A DNA stretch of 64,000 nucleotides. Origin: Imtechella halotolerans (GTDB lineage Bacteria; Bacteroidota; Bacteroidia; Flavobacteriales; Flavobacteriaceae). The notes below the pieces were generated by a model, which did not search any database, was not told the origin of the DNA, and saw nothing but the letters and a program-made list of their open reading frames with translations. Each line of letters opens with the position of its first letter. Position 1 is the first letter of the stretch. A program made the position numbers and the translations under genes. The DNA is taken from the NCBI RefSeq assembly GCF_028743515.2, contig NZ_CP117969.2:253001-317000 (forward strand). Reading direction: 5' to 3'. Of this stretch, positions 5,134 to 18,513 are shown piece after piece.

Positions 5134-5946
5134 ATGACAACACAACAATTAGTAGCTGAAATACAGCGTAAAAAGAGTTTTTTATGTATTGGATTAGATG
5201 TGGATTTAGATAAAATCCCTCCACATTTATTAGACACTGAAGATCCTATTTTTGAGTTTAATAAAGCTATAATTGATGCCACTCATGATCTGGCAGTGGC
5301 CTATAAGCCTAATAGTGCCTTTTATGAGGCGTATGGCGTTAAGGGTTGGATTGCTTTAGAGAAGACTATAGATTATCTTAATAAGAATTATCCAGAACAG
5401 TTTACCATAGCGGATGCTAAAAGGGGAGATATTGGGAACACATCTACAAGATATGCCAAGGCATTTTTGGAGGATATGAATTTTGACAGTATTACGGTTG
5501 CACCGTATATGGGGAAAGATTCAGTGGAGCCCTTTTTGGCTTTTCAAGGAAAGCACACTATCGTTTTGGCACTAACTTCAAATGAAGGTGCTTTTGATTT
5601 TCAGACAAAAGAGGTAGAAGGAAAGGAGTTGTATAAGCAGGTATTAGAAACCTCTAAAAATTGGAAAAATAGTGAGAATCTTATGTACGTGGTAGGTGCT
5701 ACCAAAGCTGATTTTTTTGCAGAAGTACGTTCGATAGTTCCGGATAGTTTTCTATTAGTACCGGGGGTAGGTGCCCAAGGTGGAAGTCTAGCGGATGTTT
5801 GTCGCTATGGTATGAATGACCAGGTAGGTTTATTGGTTAACTCGGCTAGAGGTATTATCTATGCGTCCCGCAAGGAAGATTTTGCAGAGCAAGCTAGGGC
5901 TGAAGCTCTTAAGCTTCAACAGGAAATGGCTTCTTACCTTGGTTAG
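5134..5946 (+). CDS. pyrF: Orotidine-5'-phosphate decarboxylase
   Basis: The protein has 270 residues from the ATG at 5134. An in-frame ATG at 5095 is rejected because it sits inside the prfA terminator and adds a non-conserved hydrophobic stretch. PyrF decarboxylates OMP to UMP, the last step of pyrimidine synthesis. The sequence shows the substrate-binding [10 protein letters not shown] at the N-terminus, [15 protein letters not shown], the catalytic [10 protein letters not shown] (Lys-Asp pair) and the phosphate-binding VPGVGAQGG near the C-terminus. The length fits the long type 2 OMPDC family. The last four bases overlap the convergent SMR gene. Confidence 0.93.
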
Positions 5947-12766: not shown

Positions 12767-15700
12767 ATGGAACAAACAAATCGTTATCAGCCCCATAATA
12801 AAGTACGAATAGTTACAGCAGCTTCACTGTTTGATGGTCATGATGCAGCCATCAATATCATGCGTCGTATTATTCAGTCCAATGGATGTGAAGTTATACA
12901 CTTAGGTCATGACCGAAGTGTTGAGGAAGTGGTAAACACAGCCATTCAGGAAGATGCTAATGCAATTGCCATGACATCCTATCAGGGCGGACATAATGAG
13001 TATTTTAAATATATGTATGATTTGCTTCAAGAAAGAGGAGCGGGTCATATAAAAATTTTTGGCGGTGGCGGTGGCGTTATCCTGCCGGAAGAAATAAAGG
13101 AGTTACAGGAATATGGGATTACCCGTATCTATTCTCCTGATGACGGTCGAGAGTTAGGACTTCAAGGGATGATTGATGATTTAGTAAAAAGATCAGATAC
13201 ACCCACTCTTTCTCTGTCTGAAGGTACTGAAGTTAAGAGTTCTTTAAAGGAGAAGAATATTAATACGATAGCAAGGCTAATATCCCTAGCGGAGAACAGA
13301 CCTGATGAATTTCATGAAGTCTTTACACTTTCAGGTGGAAAAAGTACTACACCAGTGCTAGGAATTACAGGAACAGGTGGTGCAGGTAAGTCTTCTTTAG
13401 TGGATGAATTGGTACGTAGATTTTTAATAGATTTTCCAGAAAAAACAATTGGAATTATTTCAGTGGACCCGTCTAAACGAAAAACAGGTGGGGCTTTGCT
13501 TGGAGATCGAATCCGAATGAATGCCATTAATAATCCACGTGTTTATATGCGATCTTTGGCTACTCGTCAGTCCAATTTGGCCTTATCCAAATATGTTGCT
13601 GAGGCAGTTCAGGTATTAAAGGCAGCTGAATACGATTTGATTATTTTAGAAACTTCAGGGATAGGCCAGAGTGATACCGAAATTTTAGAACACTCAGATA
13701 CTTCTTTATATGTAATGACTCCCGAATTTGGAGCGGCTACTCAACTTGAAAAAATAGATATGCTGGATTTTGCAGATTTGGTTGCTATTAACAAGTTTGA
13801 TAAAAGAGGGGCCTTGGATGCATTGAGGGATGTGAAGAAACAATACCAAAGAAATCATCAGTTGTGGGATGTGAATCCTGATGATATGCCAGTTTTCGGA
13901 ACCATTGCTTCTCAGTTCAATGACCCAGGCATGAATTCCTTGTATAAGGCTGTCATGGACACCTTGGTTGAAAAAACTGCTGCACCTTTAGAATCTACCT
14001 TTGAAATTACAAAGGAGATGAGTGAAAAGATATTTGTTATTCCTCCTAGTCGCACTCGCTATCTATCAGAAATAGCTGAAAATAACAGAAAATACGATGA
14101 AAAAGTGCTGACTCAAGTGGAAGTTGCCCAAAAGCTTTATGGATTATATAAAACTGTTGAAACAGTTTCAGGGGCGCTACCAAAACTTGATAAATCAGGC
14201 ATTATTCTAGAATCAATTTCCACTAAGGAAGAAACGGCTGTATTTACTTCTTTACTCTTGAAAGAATTTGATAGAGTAAAAATGAATTTGGACCCTTATA
14301 ATTGGGAGATTATTCTAAATTGGGACAAGAAAAAAGAGACCTATAAACAGCCAATATATAGCTTTAAAGTACGCGATAAAGTAATTGAAATAAAAACCCA
14401 TACCGAATCTCTTTCGCATTCACAGATTCCTAAAGTTGCCTTGCCGCAGTATAAGGCTTGGGGAGATATTTTGAAGTGGTGTTTGCAAGAAAATGTTCCT
14501 GGTGAGTTTCCATATACTGCTGGGTTGTATCCATTTAAAAGGGAAGGGGAAGATCCTACCAGAATGTTTGCAGGTGAAGGTGGTCCAGAACGAACAAATA
14601 GACGTTTTCACTATGTGAGTTTAGGAATGCCTGCCAAACGGCTTTCAACAGCTTTTGATTCTGTAACTCTTTATGGTAACGATCCTGATCATCGTCCTGA
14701 TATATATGGAAAGATTGGAAATGCAGGAGTATCGATATGCTGTTTGGATGATGCAAAAAAGTTGTATTCGGGGTTTGATTTAAGTCATCCTATGACCTCA
14801 GTGAGTATGACCATTAATGGCCCAGCTCCTATGTTGTTAGGCTTTTTTATGAATGCAGCAATTGATCAAAACTGTGAAAAATATATAAAAGAAGCAGGTC
14901 TTGAAGCTGAAGTTGAGAACAAAATAACAGCTATATACAAGGATAAGGGTGTAGAACGGCCTACCTATAATGGAGAATTACCTGAAGGGAATAATGGGCT
15001 GGGATTGATGCTTTTAGGAGTTACAGGGGACCAAGTTCTACCTAAAGAAGTGTATGACCAAATTAAGTCAGAAACACTTAAACAGGTGAGAGGAACTGTT
15101 CAAGCGGATATACTAAAAGAAGATCAAGCACAAAATACCTGTATTTTTTCAACAGAATTTGCCTTGCGATTAATGGGAGATGTACAAGAATATTTCATTG
15201 AAAAGCAAGTTAGAAACTTTTATTCTGTATCTATTTCGGGATATCATATTGCAGAAGCTGGTGCAAATCCAATCACTCAATTAGCATTCACGCTTGCCAA
15301 TGGTTTTACCTATGTGGAGTATTACCTCAGTCGTGGCATGAATATTAATGAGTTTGGTCCCAATCTTTCGTTTTTCTTCTCCAATGGAATCGATCCTGAA
15401 TATGCAGTTATAGGAAGGGTTGCCCGCAAAATTTGGGCAAAAGCTCTTAAGTATAAATATGGGGCTAATGAACGAGCTCAAATGCTTAAATATCATATAC
15501 AGACTTCTGGTAGATCATTGCATGCTCAAGAGATCGATTTTAATGACATCAGAACAACGTTACAGGCTTTGTATGCTATTTACGATAATTGTAATTCATT
15601 GCATACCAATGCCTATGATGAGGCCATAACCACTCCAACAGAAGAATCTGTGCGACGTGCTATGGCAATTCAGTTAATTATTAATAAGGAATTAGGACTT

Positions 15701-16189
15701 GCTAAAAATGAAAATCCTATACAAGGAGCCTTTATTATTGAAGAGTTAACCGATTTAGTGGAGGCAGCGGTGCTTTCTGAATTTGATCGTATAACGGAAA
15801 GAGGAGGTGTTTTAGGTGCTATGGAGACTATGTACCAGCGTTCCAAGATTCAAGAAGAGAGCCTTTACTATGAGACCCTAAAACATACCGGAGAATATCC
15901 TATTATAGGAGTGAACACCTTTTTAAGTTCTAAGGGGTCACCAACCGTGGTACCTGCCGAGGTTATTAGGGCAACTGAAGAAGAAAAGCAATTCCAAATC
16001 CATACCTTAGAAAATCTACATACAACTTATTCGGATAAGGTTTCTGAACAACTGTCTTTGGTACAAGAGGCTGCCATCCAAAATAGGAATATTTTTGAAT
16101 GTCTAATGGAAGCTGCGAAGTATTGTTCTCTAGGTCAAATAACTCAAGCACTTTTTGAGGTTGGAGGGCAATATCGTAGAAACATGTAA
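12767..16189 (+). CDS. icmF: Fused B12-dependent isobutyryl-CoA mutase (IcmF)
   Basis: This 1140-residue fusion has, in order: a B12-binding domain (about 10-140, [11 protein letters not shown] and the [11 protein letters not shown] turn), a MeaB-type G-protein chaperone (about 190-420, Walker [33 protein letters not shown]) and the mutase TIM barrel (about 520-1135). The family interconverts isobutyryl-CoA and n-butyryl-CoA with adenosylcobalamin. Where methylmalonyl-CoA mutase has Tyr (RQYAGF) this protein has Phe601 (RMFAGEG), and where it has the carboxylate-binding Arg after the QNDILK motif this one has Gln789 (DILKEDQAQ). Both changes favour isobutyryl-CoA. About 44 extra residues seem to lie between these sites compared with the Cupriavidus enzyme (from memory). 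It stands alone between terminators. Confidence 0.92.
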
Positions 16190-16213
16190 TAAACAATTGT
16201 TTTATAAGCGTAT

Positions 16214-16253
16214 AAAGGCCTGTGGATACCTCATTTTATTCACAGGCTTTTAC
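16214..16253 (+). terminator. Terminator after icmF
   Basis: The arms gcctgtg (16218-16224) and cacaggc (16241-16247) are flanked by AAAG and TTTTA. Confidence 0.65.
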
Positions 16254-16289
16254 TTTCTTGAAATTCTTAGTAATTTTAAAAGAGATTTT

Positions 16290-16319
16290 GCATCCTTTTA
16301 AAGATGCGTTCGTCTTATA
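16290..16319 (+). promoter_or_regulatory. Candidate ECF-type promoter before the Cys-rich peptide
   Basis: A short inverted repeat (gcatc 16290-16294, gatgc 16303-16307) is followed by CGTCTTATA (16311-16319), which resembles the CGTC-type -10 of ECF sigma promoters and would suit autoregulation by the sigma factor downstream. No TAnnTTTG box is near. This is pattern resemblance only. Confidence 0.35.
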
Positions 16320-16345
16320 TATAGGAAATCTAAAATAATTGGGTT

Positions 16346-16447
16346 ATGCAAAACAAAGAATGTACTTGTAATTGTGAACAATGTAGAAATGGTCAATGCG
16401 ACCAATGTTCTTGTGAAAACTGTAGTTGTTCAGGCTGTAACTGTTAA
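16346..16447 (+). CDS. Metallothionein-like Cys-rich micropeptide (33 residues)
   Basis: A 33-codon ORF with 11 cysteines runs from ATG 16346 to TAA 16445-16447. The cysteines are at residues 6, 8, 10, 13, 18, 21, 23, 26, 28, 31 and 33, in CxC and CxxC spacings. There are no aromatic or long hydrophobic residues. This composition is that of a metallothionein-like metal-binding peptide and is very unlikely by chance in AT-rich intergenic DNA. It lies 40 bases before the SigZ-like sigma gene, with a weak hairpin between them. A role in binding zinc, copper or cadmium, or in metal or thiol sensing for the sigma factor, is inferred. I know of no named family for exactly this peptide. Confidence 0.75.
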   Translation: MQNKECTCNCEQCRNGQCDQCSCENCSCSGCNC

Positions 16448-16453
16448 TTAAAA

Positions 16454-16478
16454 AGGTCCTTTCTGATGGAAGGACTTC
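16454..16478 (+). terminator. Weak hairpin between Cys-rich peptide and sigma gene
   Basis: The arms gtcctt (16456-16461) and aaggac (16470-16475) have a loop of 8. The T-content after it is interrupted. It may cause partial termination, giving more peptide than sigma-factor mRNA. Confidence 0.35.
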
Positions 16479-16487
16479 ATTTGTTTT

Positions 16488-17030
16488 ATGAATACCATAG
16501 CTATTTGGAATTTATATGCCATCGATGTAGAACGCTTTATATTAAGTAAAGTGCAGGATGAGTGTGTCTCAAAAGATTTGCTTCAGGAGGTGTTTTTAAG
16601 GGTACATGTAAATAAACATCGATTAAAAGAAAGTGATAAAGTAAAGTCCTGGTTGTTTTCAATTGCAAGAAACATAGTGGTTGACTATTACAGAAAAAAA
16701 AGGGTACTACAGGTAGTGGACCAGATGGAGGTAACGGAAGAACCTTTGATAAATCAGGTTCATACTGAAGTAGAATGCTTAAAGGGAATTATTAATGTAT
16801 TGCCTCCTAAATATAAGGTAGCGGTTCAGATGGCTGATTTAGAGGGAAAAAAGCAGCAGGAGATTGCCGATAGTTTGGGAATATCATTGCCTGCCGTAAA
16901 ATCAAGAATACTTAGAGCTCGTAAAATGATTGTAGAAGGCTTTATGGACTGTTGTGATTTTAAACTTAATTCTCAAGGTAAATTGGTAGGTGAGGTTAAG
17001 GAACGCGAATTGTGCAAGGTTTGTCAGTAG
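16488..17030 (+). CDS. sigZ: ECF sigma factor, SigZ family
   Basis: The protein has 180 residues. Sigma-70 region 2 (about 15-75, DLLQEVFLRVHVNKHRL and SWLFSIARNIVVDYYRKKR) is followed by region 4 (about 100-152, LPPKYKVAVQMADLEGKKQQEIADSLGISLPAVKSRILRAR), which has the usual helix-turn-helix. The extension after region 4 contains CC (about 159) and ends CKVCQ, the paired cysteines seen in SigZ-type proteins. These could bind a metal or sense redox state, making a separate anti-sigma factor unnecessary; none is encoded nearby. The 33-residue Cys-rich peptide gene immediately upstream supports a metal or thiol theme. Confidence 0.85.
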   Translation: MNTIAIWNLYAIDVERFILSKVQDECVSKDLLQEVFLRVHVNKHRLKESDKVKSWLFSIARNIVVDYYRKKRVLQVVDQMEVTEEPLINQVHTEVECLKGIINVLPPKYKVAVQMADLEGKKQQEIADSLGISLPAVKSRILRARKMIVEGFMDCCDFKLNSQGKLVGEVKERELCKVCQ

Positions 17031-17124
17031 GTCTCAATTTTCTCATAAAACTCCCATAAATTCTCTATTTTTTTATACCTTTAAACTACGATTTGTCCGC
17101 TTTATGGCAGTTAATTAAAAAGGT

Positions 17125-18513
17125 ATGAAAGTAGGTATAAGGGTCATCATTTTGATGACATTTTTTTCGGGTTTTAGTCAGGAAATGACCTTGCGCAAAG
17201 GCGCTGTTATCGATAATTTAACCGTCTCTGATACACTTACTTCAACTTTTGCTCTATACCTGCCAACTACTTTTTCTTCCGAAAATCCAACGCCTATTGT
17301 TTTTGTAGTCGATCCACAACAGCGTGGAAAGCAGGCGCTTTCTCTGTTTTTGGAAGCGGCTGAAAAGTATAACTTTGCAATTGCTGCACCTAATTCTATT
17401 TCAGCCGATACAACCTTGGAAGAGAATACACGTAACTTTCTAGTTACATTTCAAAGGGTGTCTGAACTTCTGCGGTTGGATTCTAATCACATCTATATTG
17501 CGGGGCACCAGCAGGGAGGAGATGTGGCCTTGGTAGCACCTGCATTTATAAAGGGTATTAATGGATTAATTATTTCAGGGACTTCCATGAATCCTACGCA
17601 ATTGATGAATATGAAAAATCAATTTTTTGGGGTAATCAGTATCATAGGTATAGAGGATTATCGAATGATTGACCTTTGGAGTACCAGGCCATGGTTAACT
17701 AATCTAAAGAAATTTAATGAACTTTATTTGGTACAGGAAGGTAGCTCTTGGCCACTTCCGCAGTATTTAACTAAGGCTATGCGTTCCTTCCAACTTCAAA
17801 ATGTATTGAAAGCCAAAATGCCGAGAGTAGATTCAAAATTGACTGAAATGTATGCTGATGACATGGCTTTTGGGGCAGAATTAGAGGCCAAAGGCCACTA
17901 CGCTCAGGCCATGGAACTATATGAGTCTATGGAGTCAGATTATAAACCTCTTGTGGATATTTCCAGTTTGAAGGAACATATAAAAGAGTTGAAAAGGAAT
18001 AGTACTTATAAAGCTCAAGCCGCAACTAGAACCAAAGCTATTCAAGAAGAAATATATAAACGGGATGAGTTTATGGCTTTTATAGAAGAAGACATAAGTT
18101 CTAAAAATCTCTCTAATTTGGGATGGTGGTATGATACCTTGGATTTGTTAAAAAAGGATGAGCCAAATCAGGAAATGGCTTTTATGAATAAACGTTTATT
18201 GGCTTTTGTGGATGCATTGATTAGTGATCATCTTAAAAAATTGGTAAACGAGCCTAAAGATGATTCACACATATTTTTGTGGGTTTTACAAATCATGTTG
18301 AATGAAAAGCGATATGAATCCTATAAAAATATAATTTCTTTAAGTGCTGAGAATAGTGATTACGGTACGGCCTATTATTATCTGGAAGAAATGCTTAAAA
18401 ACGGCTATAAAGATGAGCAAGGGGTGTATTCAATAGAACATACCGCTATACTTCGAATTACTCCTGAGTTTAATGAACTTGTAAAGAAATATTTAGGAAC
18501 TTCGAGATACTAG
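17125..18513 (+). CDS. Secreted alpha/beta-hydrolase-like protein lacking the nucleophile serine, with helical C-terminal half
   Basis: The protein has 462 residues. A signal peptide (about 1-18, ending FSGFSQ) precedes an esterase/PHB-depolymerase-like alpha/beta-hydrolase domain (about 25-250). Where the nucleophile elbow GxSxG is expected it reads GHQQGG, so the serine is Gln129. The C-terminal half (about 250-460) is helical and contains TPR-like pieces (ELEAKGHYAQAMELYESMES, DYGTAYYYLEEMLKNGYKDE). The protein is probably a pseudo-enzyme that binds rather than hydrolyses, or uses another chemistry (inference). It acts in the periplasm or outside. Its stop overlaps that of the convergent gene by four bases. 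Confidence 0.65.
   Translation: MKVGIRVIILMTFFSGFSQEMTLRKGAVIDNLTVSDTLTSTFALYLPTTFSSENPTPIVFVVDPQQRGKQALSLFLEAAEKYNFAIAAPNSISADTTLEENTRNFLVTFQRVSELLRLDSNHIYIAGHQQGGDVALVAPAFIKGINGLIISGTSMNPTQLMNMKNQFFGVISIIGIEDYRMIDLWSTRPWLTNLKKFNELYLVQEGSSWPLPQYLTKAMRSFQLQNVLKAKMPRVDSKLTEMYADDMAFGAELEAKGHYAQAMELYESMESDYKPLVDISSLKEHIKELKRNSTYKAQAATRTKAIQEEIYKRDEFMAFIEEDISSKNLSNLGWWYDTLDLLKKDEPNQEMAFMNKRLLAFVDALISDHLKKLVNEPKDDSHIFLWVLQIMLNEKRYESYKNIISLSAENSDYGTAYYYLEEMLKNGYKDEQGVYSIEHTAILRITPEFNELVKKYLGTSRY

Follow-up and report, generated by a model that had tools for sequence, protein, structure and literature searches.

Why would a bacterium place a gene for a peptide of 33 residues, one third of them cysteines, directly in front of a gene for an extracytoplasmic function (ECF) sigma factor? 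The question is raised by two forward-strand genes in a 64,000-nucleotide stretch of the Imtechella halotolerans genome (contig NZ_CP117969.2, positions 253,001 to 317,000), the whole of which is called the window here and in which all features of this species are numbered. The reading that we favour from sequence comparisons, with a rough probability of two in three, is that the two genes form a self-activating stress operon in which a thiol-sensing sigma factor of the SigZ type would drive its own operon and, with it, a sequestering peptide.

A conserved micropeptide–sigma factor pair

The original prediction, made on the letters of the window, described a 33-residue, 11-cysteine open reading frame (ORF) lying 40 bases before an ECF sigma gene with CC and CxxC in its tail, and this arrangement was confirmed at 16346-16447 and 16488-17030, the stop codon of the peptide gene and the ATG of the sigma gene being 40 nt apart. 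The micropeptide is MQNKECTCNCEQCRNGQCDQCSCENCSCSGCNC (type I in what follows); no other ORF of the window reaches both 6 cysteines and a cysteine content of 15%. Over 20 relative loci (218 kb), two unrelated cysteine-rich ORFs (at least 7 cysteines, 18%) were seen outside the vicinity of sigZ, a third ORF listed in that scan being the genuine peptide of locus L105. The suspicion that annotation misses such a peptide was well founded, as no Pfam or NCBIfam model covers it: there was no match in Pfam-A, NCBIfam, PDB sequences or the curated metallothionein models, eight other peptides of several types likewise had none in Pfam-A and NCBIfam, and an Rfam scan of 16190-17130 found nothing.

A SigZ-like match at an E-value of 1e-20 or better is present in 73 of 299 genomes of the Flavobacteriaceae, and the same small ORF was found upstream in all of the first six close SigZ relatives taken from the genome collection (Xanthomarina, Formosa, Seonamhaeicola, Mariniflexile and others). 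The original prediction would have fallen had relatives lacked a conserved cysteine-rich ORF ahead of sigZ, but it passed this test: a peptide homologue occupies the same place in 30 of the 30 nearest SigZ loci of the family. That the pairing of peptide and sigZ is real and conserved is strongly supported by this shared gene order. The type I peptide was found only in this family when 395 genomes drawn from the phylum were searched.

All 11 cysteines are invariant across 34 peptide sequences of constant frame and length. The 40 type-I loci used for the promoter comparison below were picked by their cysteine-spacing pattern, so that cysteine invariance among them is not independent evidence, whereas the 30-locus SigZ set is unbiased. 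The ratio of non-synonymous to synonymous differences (pN/pS) in the 25 closest pairs is 0.19 for all codons and 0.37 for non-cysteine codons; synonymous changes prevail, cysteine positions are unchanged, and both the C-x-C/C-x2-C spacing and the non-cysteine residues are under purifying selection. The coding nature of the ORF is strongly supported by this pattern of substitution, and the ORF is almost certainly a real gene rather than a chance occurrence. It could be argued that an ORF so short, absent from curated protein-family libraries and with structured RNA alongside, is untranslated and owes its cysteine pattern to the accident of a conserved RNA element, but the substitution pattern, the fixed frame and length and the negative Rfam scan make this exceedingly improbable.

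A profile of the peptide with its 11 invariant cysteines (A1) finds a single copy in each of 48 genomes, adjoining a SigZ gene in 36 and without one in 12, the latter also being devoid of the TGCATC-N16-CGTCT promoter described below. Since these 12 genomes have kept the peptide without sigZ, it is probably functional in its own right. The orphan type-I peptides are those of loci L048-L059, three of which (L049, L052 and L056) lie at the same chromosomal place, with a four-helix ORF and an Lrp-type gene adjoining; the L052 peptide has lost three cysteines and has cas1/cas2-like ORFs alongside. In genome G195 (L060), the sigma frame carries two stops and the peptide matches the profile only in part, as if the pair were decaying jointly.

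A SigZ-type factor with cysteines of its own

The sigma gene (16488-17030) encodes 180 residues for which the SigZ models TIGR02959 and NF007215 are the best full-length matches among ECF models (5.7e-49 and 1.1e-50, the next family standing at 9.2e-27). The corresponding scores of 166.2 bits (cut-off 168.65) and 172.2 bits (cut-off 212) are below both curated cut-offs, and the protein is therefore named SigZ-type here rather than filed as an equivalog. An AlphaFold2 model (mean predicted local distance difference test score of 85) has the usual ECF domains, with a disordered linker at residues 77-89. No anti-sigma gene adjoins the SigZ-type gene.

Cys97 (codon at 16776-16778), at the start of region 4, is a cysteine in all 63 SigZ rows labelled peptide-adjacent and is replaced in most rows without a peptide. 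The tail (16950-17024) contains the conserved C155, C156, C176 and C179, which frame a predicted β-hairpin: in the AlphaFold2 model the last helix runs up to the first cysteine of the CC, beyond which come the short hairpin and the CxxC, the protein ending in ...MDCCDFKLNSQGKLVGEVKERELCKVCQ. Both Cys97 and the tail cysteines track the presence of the peptide. As modelled, the four cysteines around the hairpin would suit a metal site, and the tail may bind metal.

A promoter that follows the pair

The start of the operon was found to carry an ECF-type promoter on the forward strand (16289-16315), with a -35 element TGCATC (16289-16294), a 16-nt spacer and a -10 element CGTCT (16311-16315). The original prediction had singled out an upstream box, CGTCTTATA (16311-16319), which it thought could be read by the sigma factor, and had suggested that the peptide might be the main product; the CGTCT of this box is indeed the -10 of a conserved promoter that has the peptide as its first product. 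Among 40 distinct type-I loci, 39 carry TGCATC-N16-(C)GTCT, exactly or with one base changed, 22-33 nt 5′ of the peptide ATG and with a spacer that is always 16 nt. The strict pattern is unique to this operon in the host genome, and in a genome-wide scan of 36 relatives every match with zero or one mismatch sits at the peptide gene. Matches with two mismatches (about nine) are no commoner than matches to the reversed pattern in type-I relatives, and no further SigZ targets are therefore claimed in type-I genomes.

The position of the promoter also follows gene order, being 5′ of the peptide in peptide–sigZ loci and 5′ of sigZ in sigZ–peptide loci (L116, L118, L119, L125 and L086), while in genome G409 it lies directly 5′ of the downstream peptide as well. 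A conserved promoter of this kind upstream of the operon (spacer of about 16 nt, CGTC in the -10) is the mark of an autoregulated ECF operon. These comparisons strongly support the promoter, its association with SigZ loci and autoregulation of the operon by SigZ, the promoter presumably being recognized by this SigZ-type factor.

Unrelated peptides in other SigZ clades

In a second SigZ clade the upstream peptide is a different one, of 37-41 residues with up to 13 cysteines (e.g. MNNCKCTNCDCTKCNCGNCLESNCPCSKCDCDKCDCC), behind a promoter of the form (T)GTATCTTTTT...GTCTA. SigZ loci from the whole phylum revealed more upstream types, plus a set of loci where the peptide gene follows sigZ (MKNLTECTCTECDCVVSPCGCDCCSS among them). 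Several cysteine-rich families of 19-48 residues, unrelated in sequence, are in this way paired with SigZ across the Bacteroidota, and the peptide types are strongly clustered on the SigZ tree.

Some loci are arranged differently. SigZ-type promoters run in both directions behind sigZ in L189 (~5600-5720, genome G352) and L211 (genome G482); one precedes an opposite-strand peptide of 19 residues, MKNVIIQKDGGCCGGLCDC, a near-identical ORF, MKNMIIQKDGGCCGGLCGC, being readable by eye in G482, and the other a gene that looks PAP2-like. In L180 (4570-5005, genome G324), a SigZ-type promoter is followed by a small ORF, monooxygenase-like and with CC at its end, and then by sigZ. Promoters of this type next to sigZ also lie 5′ of a divergent gene for a MATE-like (multidrug and toxic compound extrusion) efflux protein (L182, 4644, genome G532) and of a PhzF-like gene (L191, 5498, genome G501), which, judging by these sites, are possible further SigZ targets.

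The hairpin between the two genes

The 40 nt between peptide and sigZ contain a hairpin (16454-16477, forward strand; -13.1 kcal/mol, z -3.6) resembling a terminator or a stabilizer. Hairpins were found at this position in 39 of 39 loci tested, with unrelated sequences and a median of -17.4 kcal/mol, and some of them have a poor T-run or none. The presence of the hairpin is strongly supported by this recurrence, and its role may be that of a partial terminator or of an mRNA-stabilizing end.

An ORF with one third cysteine codons followed by a terminator-like hairpin is also what would be expected of a leader peptide, in which ribosomes stalling at cysteine codons upon cysteine limitation or oxidation would open the terminator and allow sigZ expression. 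Polycysteine leader ORFs have been described in mycobacteria. However, an antiterminator would require the leader to pair with the 5′ arm of this hairpin, and over 39 loci such pairing is not stronger than that obtained after shuffling the codons (mean z +0.6). Selection on cysteine spacing and on the non-cysteine residues, the 12 genomes with the peptide but no sigZ and the clades with the peptide 3′ of sigZ are likewise difficult to reconcile with attenuation, which we consider distinctly unlikely and have set aside.

Arsenic genes in the place of the peptide

Which signal might such an operon answer? A clue that was absent from the original prediction is provided by peptide-less SigZ loci: an arsenic-detoxification gene directly follows sigZ in 14 of 23 of them, as against 0 of 65 for peptide-bearing SigZ (Fisher p 1e-10, ignoring kinship). 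These genes, of which representatives were named by NCBIfam and others by tblastn, are arsM (NF008823) or arsI/cadI (NF041414), both over cut-off, or an arsE-like thioredoxin gene with a SaoE/SO_0444-like permease gene, both below cut-off; in L114, arsI/cadI is followed by acr3 (TIGR00832, 366 bits). Of the 14 arsenic loci, 13 have a site resembling the SigZ-type promoter 0-800 nt 3′ of sigZ, mostly 5′ of the arsenic gene; in 293,480 strand-bases the pattern matched 14 times and its reversed form not once. That the cysteine peptide occupies the slot of an arsenic-detoxification gene in SigZ loci is strongly supported by gene order. The arsM-linked clade (L193 at 5578, L194 at 5538 and L195 at ~5610) also has a conserved ORF of ~42-46 residues with an RRYC/RRFC end, 3′ of sigZ and behind a SigZ-type or similar promoter.

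Arsenic genes are found near SigZ in other settings too. The peptide–sigZ pair stands directly after an acr3 gene and an arsC-like gene in L175 and L200, with a gene for an ArsR-type regulator visible in L200 (ACR3 being named by similarity and the rest from sequence). A distant SigZ-type factor is carried by ~1,260 plasmids, nearly all enterobacterial, and all four of the annotated plasmid regions examined (L168, L169, L170 and L171) are in or beside ars clusters, either arsR-arsH-sigma-arsD or an ars operon with permease and thioredoxin genes adjoining. The I. halotolerans genome itself has an acr3 gene ~52 kb from the operon. Since arsenic genes take the place of the peptide at other SigZ loci, arsenic or a thiophilic metal is the best-supported signal class; arsenic is the most probable one for the SigZ clan and, by extension, may be that of the type-I clade.

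These findings bear on another role for the peptide. It had been predicted to tune the sigma factor, for which no positive support was obtained, and it might in principle regulate SigZ by binding its cysteine tail, either as a soluble anti-sigma factor or as a relay of metal. The tight genetic linkage and the co-occurrence of the peptide with Cys97 and the tail cysteines would fit such a regulator, but orphan peptides exist without sigZ, arsenic enzymes can stand in for the peptide, and several unrelated peptides for one sigma family are better explained by a chemical property (many thiols) than by a protein–protein interface. We consider a regulatory peptide unlikely.

A proposed self-activating operon and what weighs against it

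In the operon that we propose, the thiols of SigZ itself (those of Cys97 and the CC/CxxC tail) would detect a thiophilic metal or metalloid, in all likelihood As(III) or an ion of similar chemistry, and the activated factor would then start transcription of the operon, its own gene included, at the TGCATC-N16-CGTCT promoter. The 33-residue peptide would be made first and would probably be the principal product; it would bind up the ion in the manner of a tiny metallothionein and so close a negative feedback loop, the intergenic hairpin holding synthesis of the sigma factor below that of the peptide. The peptide is, in other words, probably metal- or arsenic-binding and switched on by SigZ.

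Several observations weigh against this scenario. The sigma factor falls just under the SigZ curated cut-off, and it has a single Cys97 at the start of region 4 and is devoid of the CXC present in the linker between σ2 and σ4 of CorE, the metal sensor discussed below. For nine peptide-less SigZ there is no arsenic gene and, by the thresholds applied, no cysteine-rich peptide next to them either; some of the nine have SigZ-type promoters 5′ of other genes (PAP2-like, MATE and PhzF-like). Gene neighbourhood is no proof of a signal, and the neighbour counts ignore phylogeny. Finally, there is no arsenic gene in the window or within ~6 kb of 20 type-I loci examined, so that the arsenic link of the type-I clade is one of analogy. 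The same operon logic might then serve Cu(I), Zn or Cd, arsenic being irrelevant to this clade. All three ions are bound by metallothioneins, CorE is a sensor of copper and CorE2 one of Cd/Zn, and ArsI/CadI and SO_0444-like permeases are also tied by name to Cd, Cu or Zn; nevertheless, the arsM, acr3, arsH and arsD neighbours across SigZ clades indicate arsenic, and we regard this alternative as somewhat unlikely, if a serious one.

A broader and more tentative scenario, possible at best, is that the SigZ clan consists of sensors of arsenic or a similar metalloid acting through their own cysteines, and that the Bacteroidota have repeatedly swapped a SigZ-controlled arsenic enzyme for an arsenic-binding micropeptide, which, if true, would reveal a largely unannotated set of arsenic metallothioneins. 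In the literature searched, no function assigned to SigZ was found, and SigZ now gains a promoter motif, a likely target set and a testable signal. Unannotated families of cysteine-rich peptides should be findable beside sigZ or behind TGCRTC-N16-CGTCT. If these peptides bind arsenic or other thiophilic ions, they would represent a metal-buffering layer of the Bacteroidota invisible to current annotation, and a compact sensor-plus-output module of use for biosensors.

Neighbouring genes

The conserved neighbours of the pair are icmF, a four-helix ORF, an Lrp-type gene and a major facilitator superfamily (MFS) gene. In the window, the fused isobutyryl-CoA mutase IcmF is encoded at 12767-16189 (NF045497, 1763 bits), and it is the upstream neighbour in many Flavobacteriaceae. 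Neither a conserved downstream partner nor a maturase for ribosomally synthesized and post-translationally modified peptides was seen around the pair in the relative loci.

Comparison with known systems

SigZ itself (TIGR02959/NF007215; Bacillus subtilis SigZ) is the best whole-length match of the sigma factor by a wide margin, from which the I. halotolerans protein and its locus differ by the sub-cut-off scores, the CC/CxxC tail, Cys97 and the micropeptide partner. The SigZ-type factors of the arsR-arsH-sigma-arsD clusters on enterobacterial plasmids likewise have a cysteine at the Cys97 position and cysteines in the tail, while their neighbours are arsenic enzymes and chaperones, no micropeptide being noted in the annotated regions.

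The mycobacterial cysteine attenuators share with the pair a short cysteine-rich ORF and a hairpin 5′ of a gene, and differ from it in that here there is no antiterminator signal, spacing and non-cysteine residues are conserved, and orphan or downstream copies of the peptide exist. Bacterial metallothioneins are controlled by repressors of the ArsR/SmtB or CsoR type. Like SmtA/BmtA and MymT, the micropeptide is small, one third cysteine, built on C-x-C/C-x2-C and poor in hydrophobic residues, whereas it has no Pfam or NCBIfam match, belongs to a set of several unrelated sequence types and is apparently under the control of an ECF sigma factor.

Precedents for metal sensing by the cysteine-rich tail of an ECF factor are CorE and CorE2, which respond to copper and to Cd/Zn, respectively (PMC8999054). 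These factors of Myxococcus xanthus (former ECF44, now ECF238) have a cysteine-rich C-terminal domain, as does the SigZ-type factor, and a role in metal stress that the latter would, by analogy, share. The SigZ-type factor belongs to a different sequence family, and its product is a micropeptide or an arsenic enzyme.
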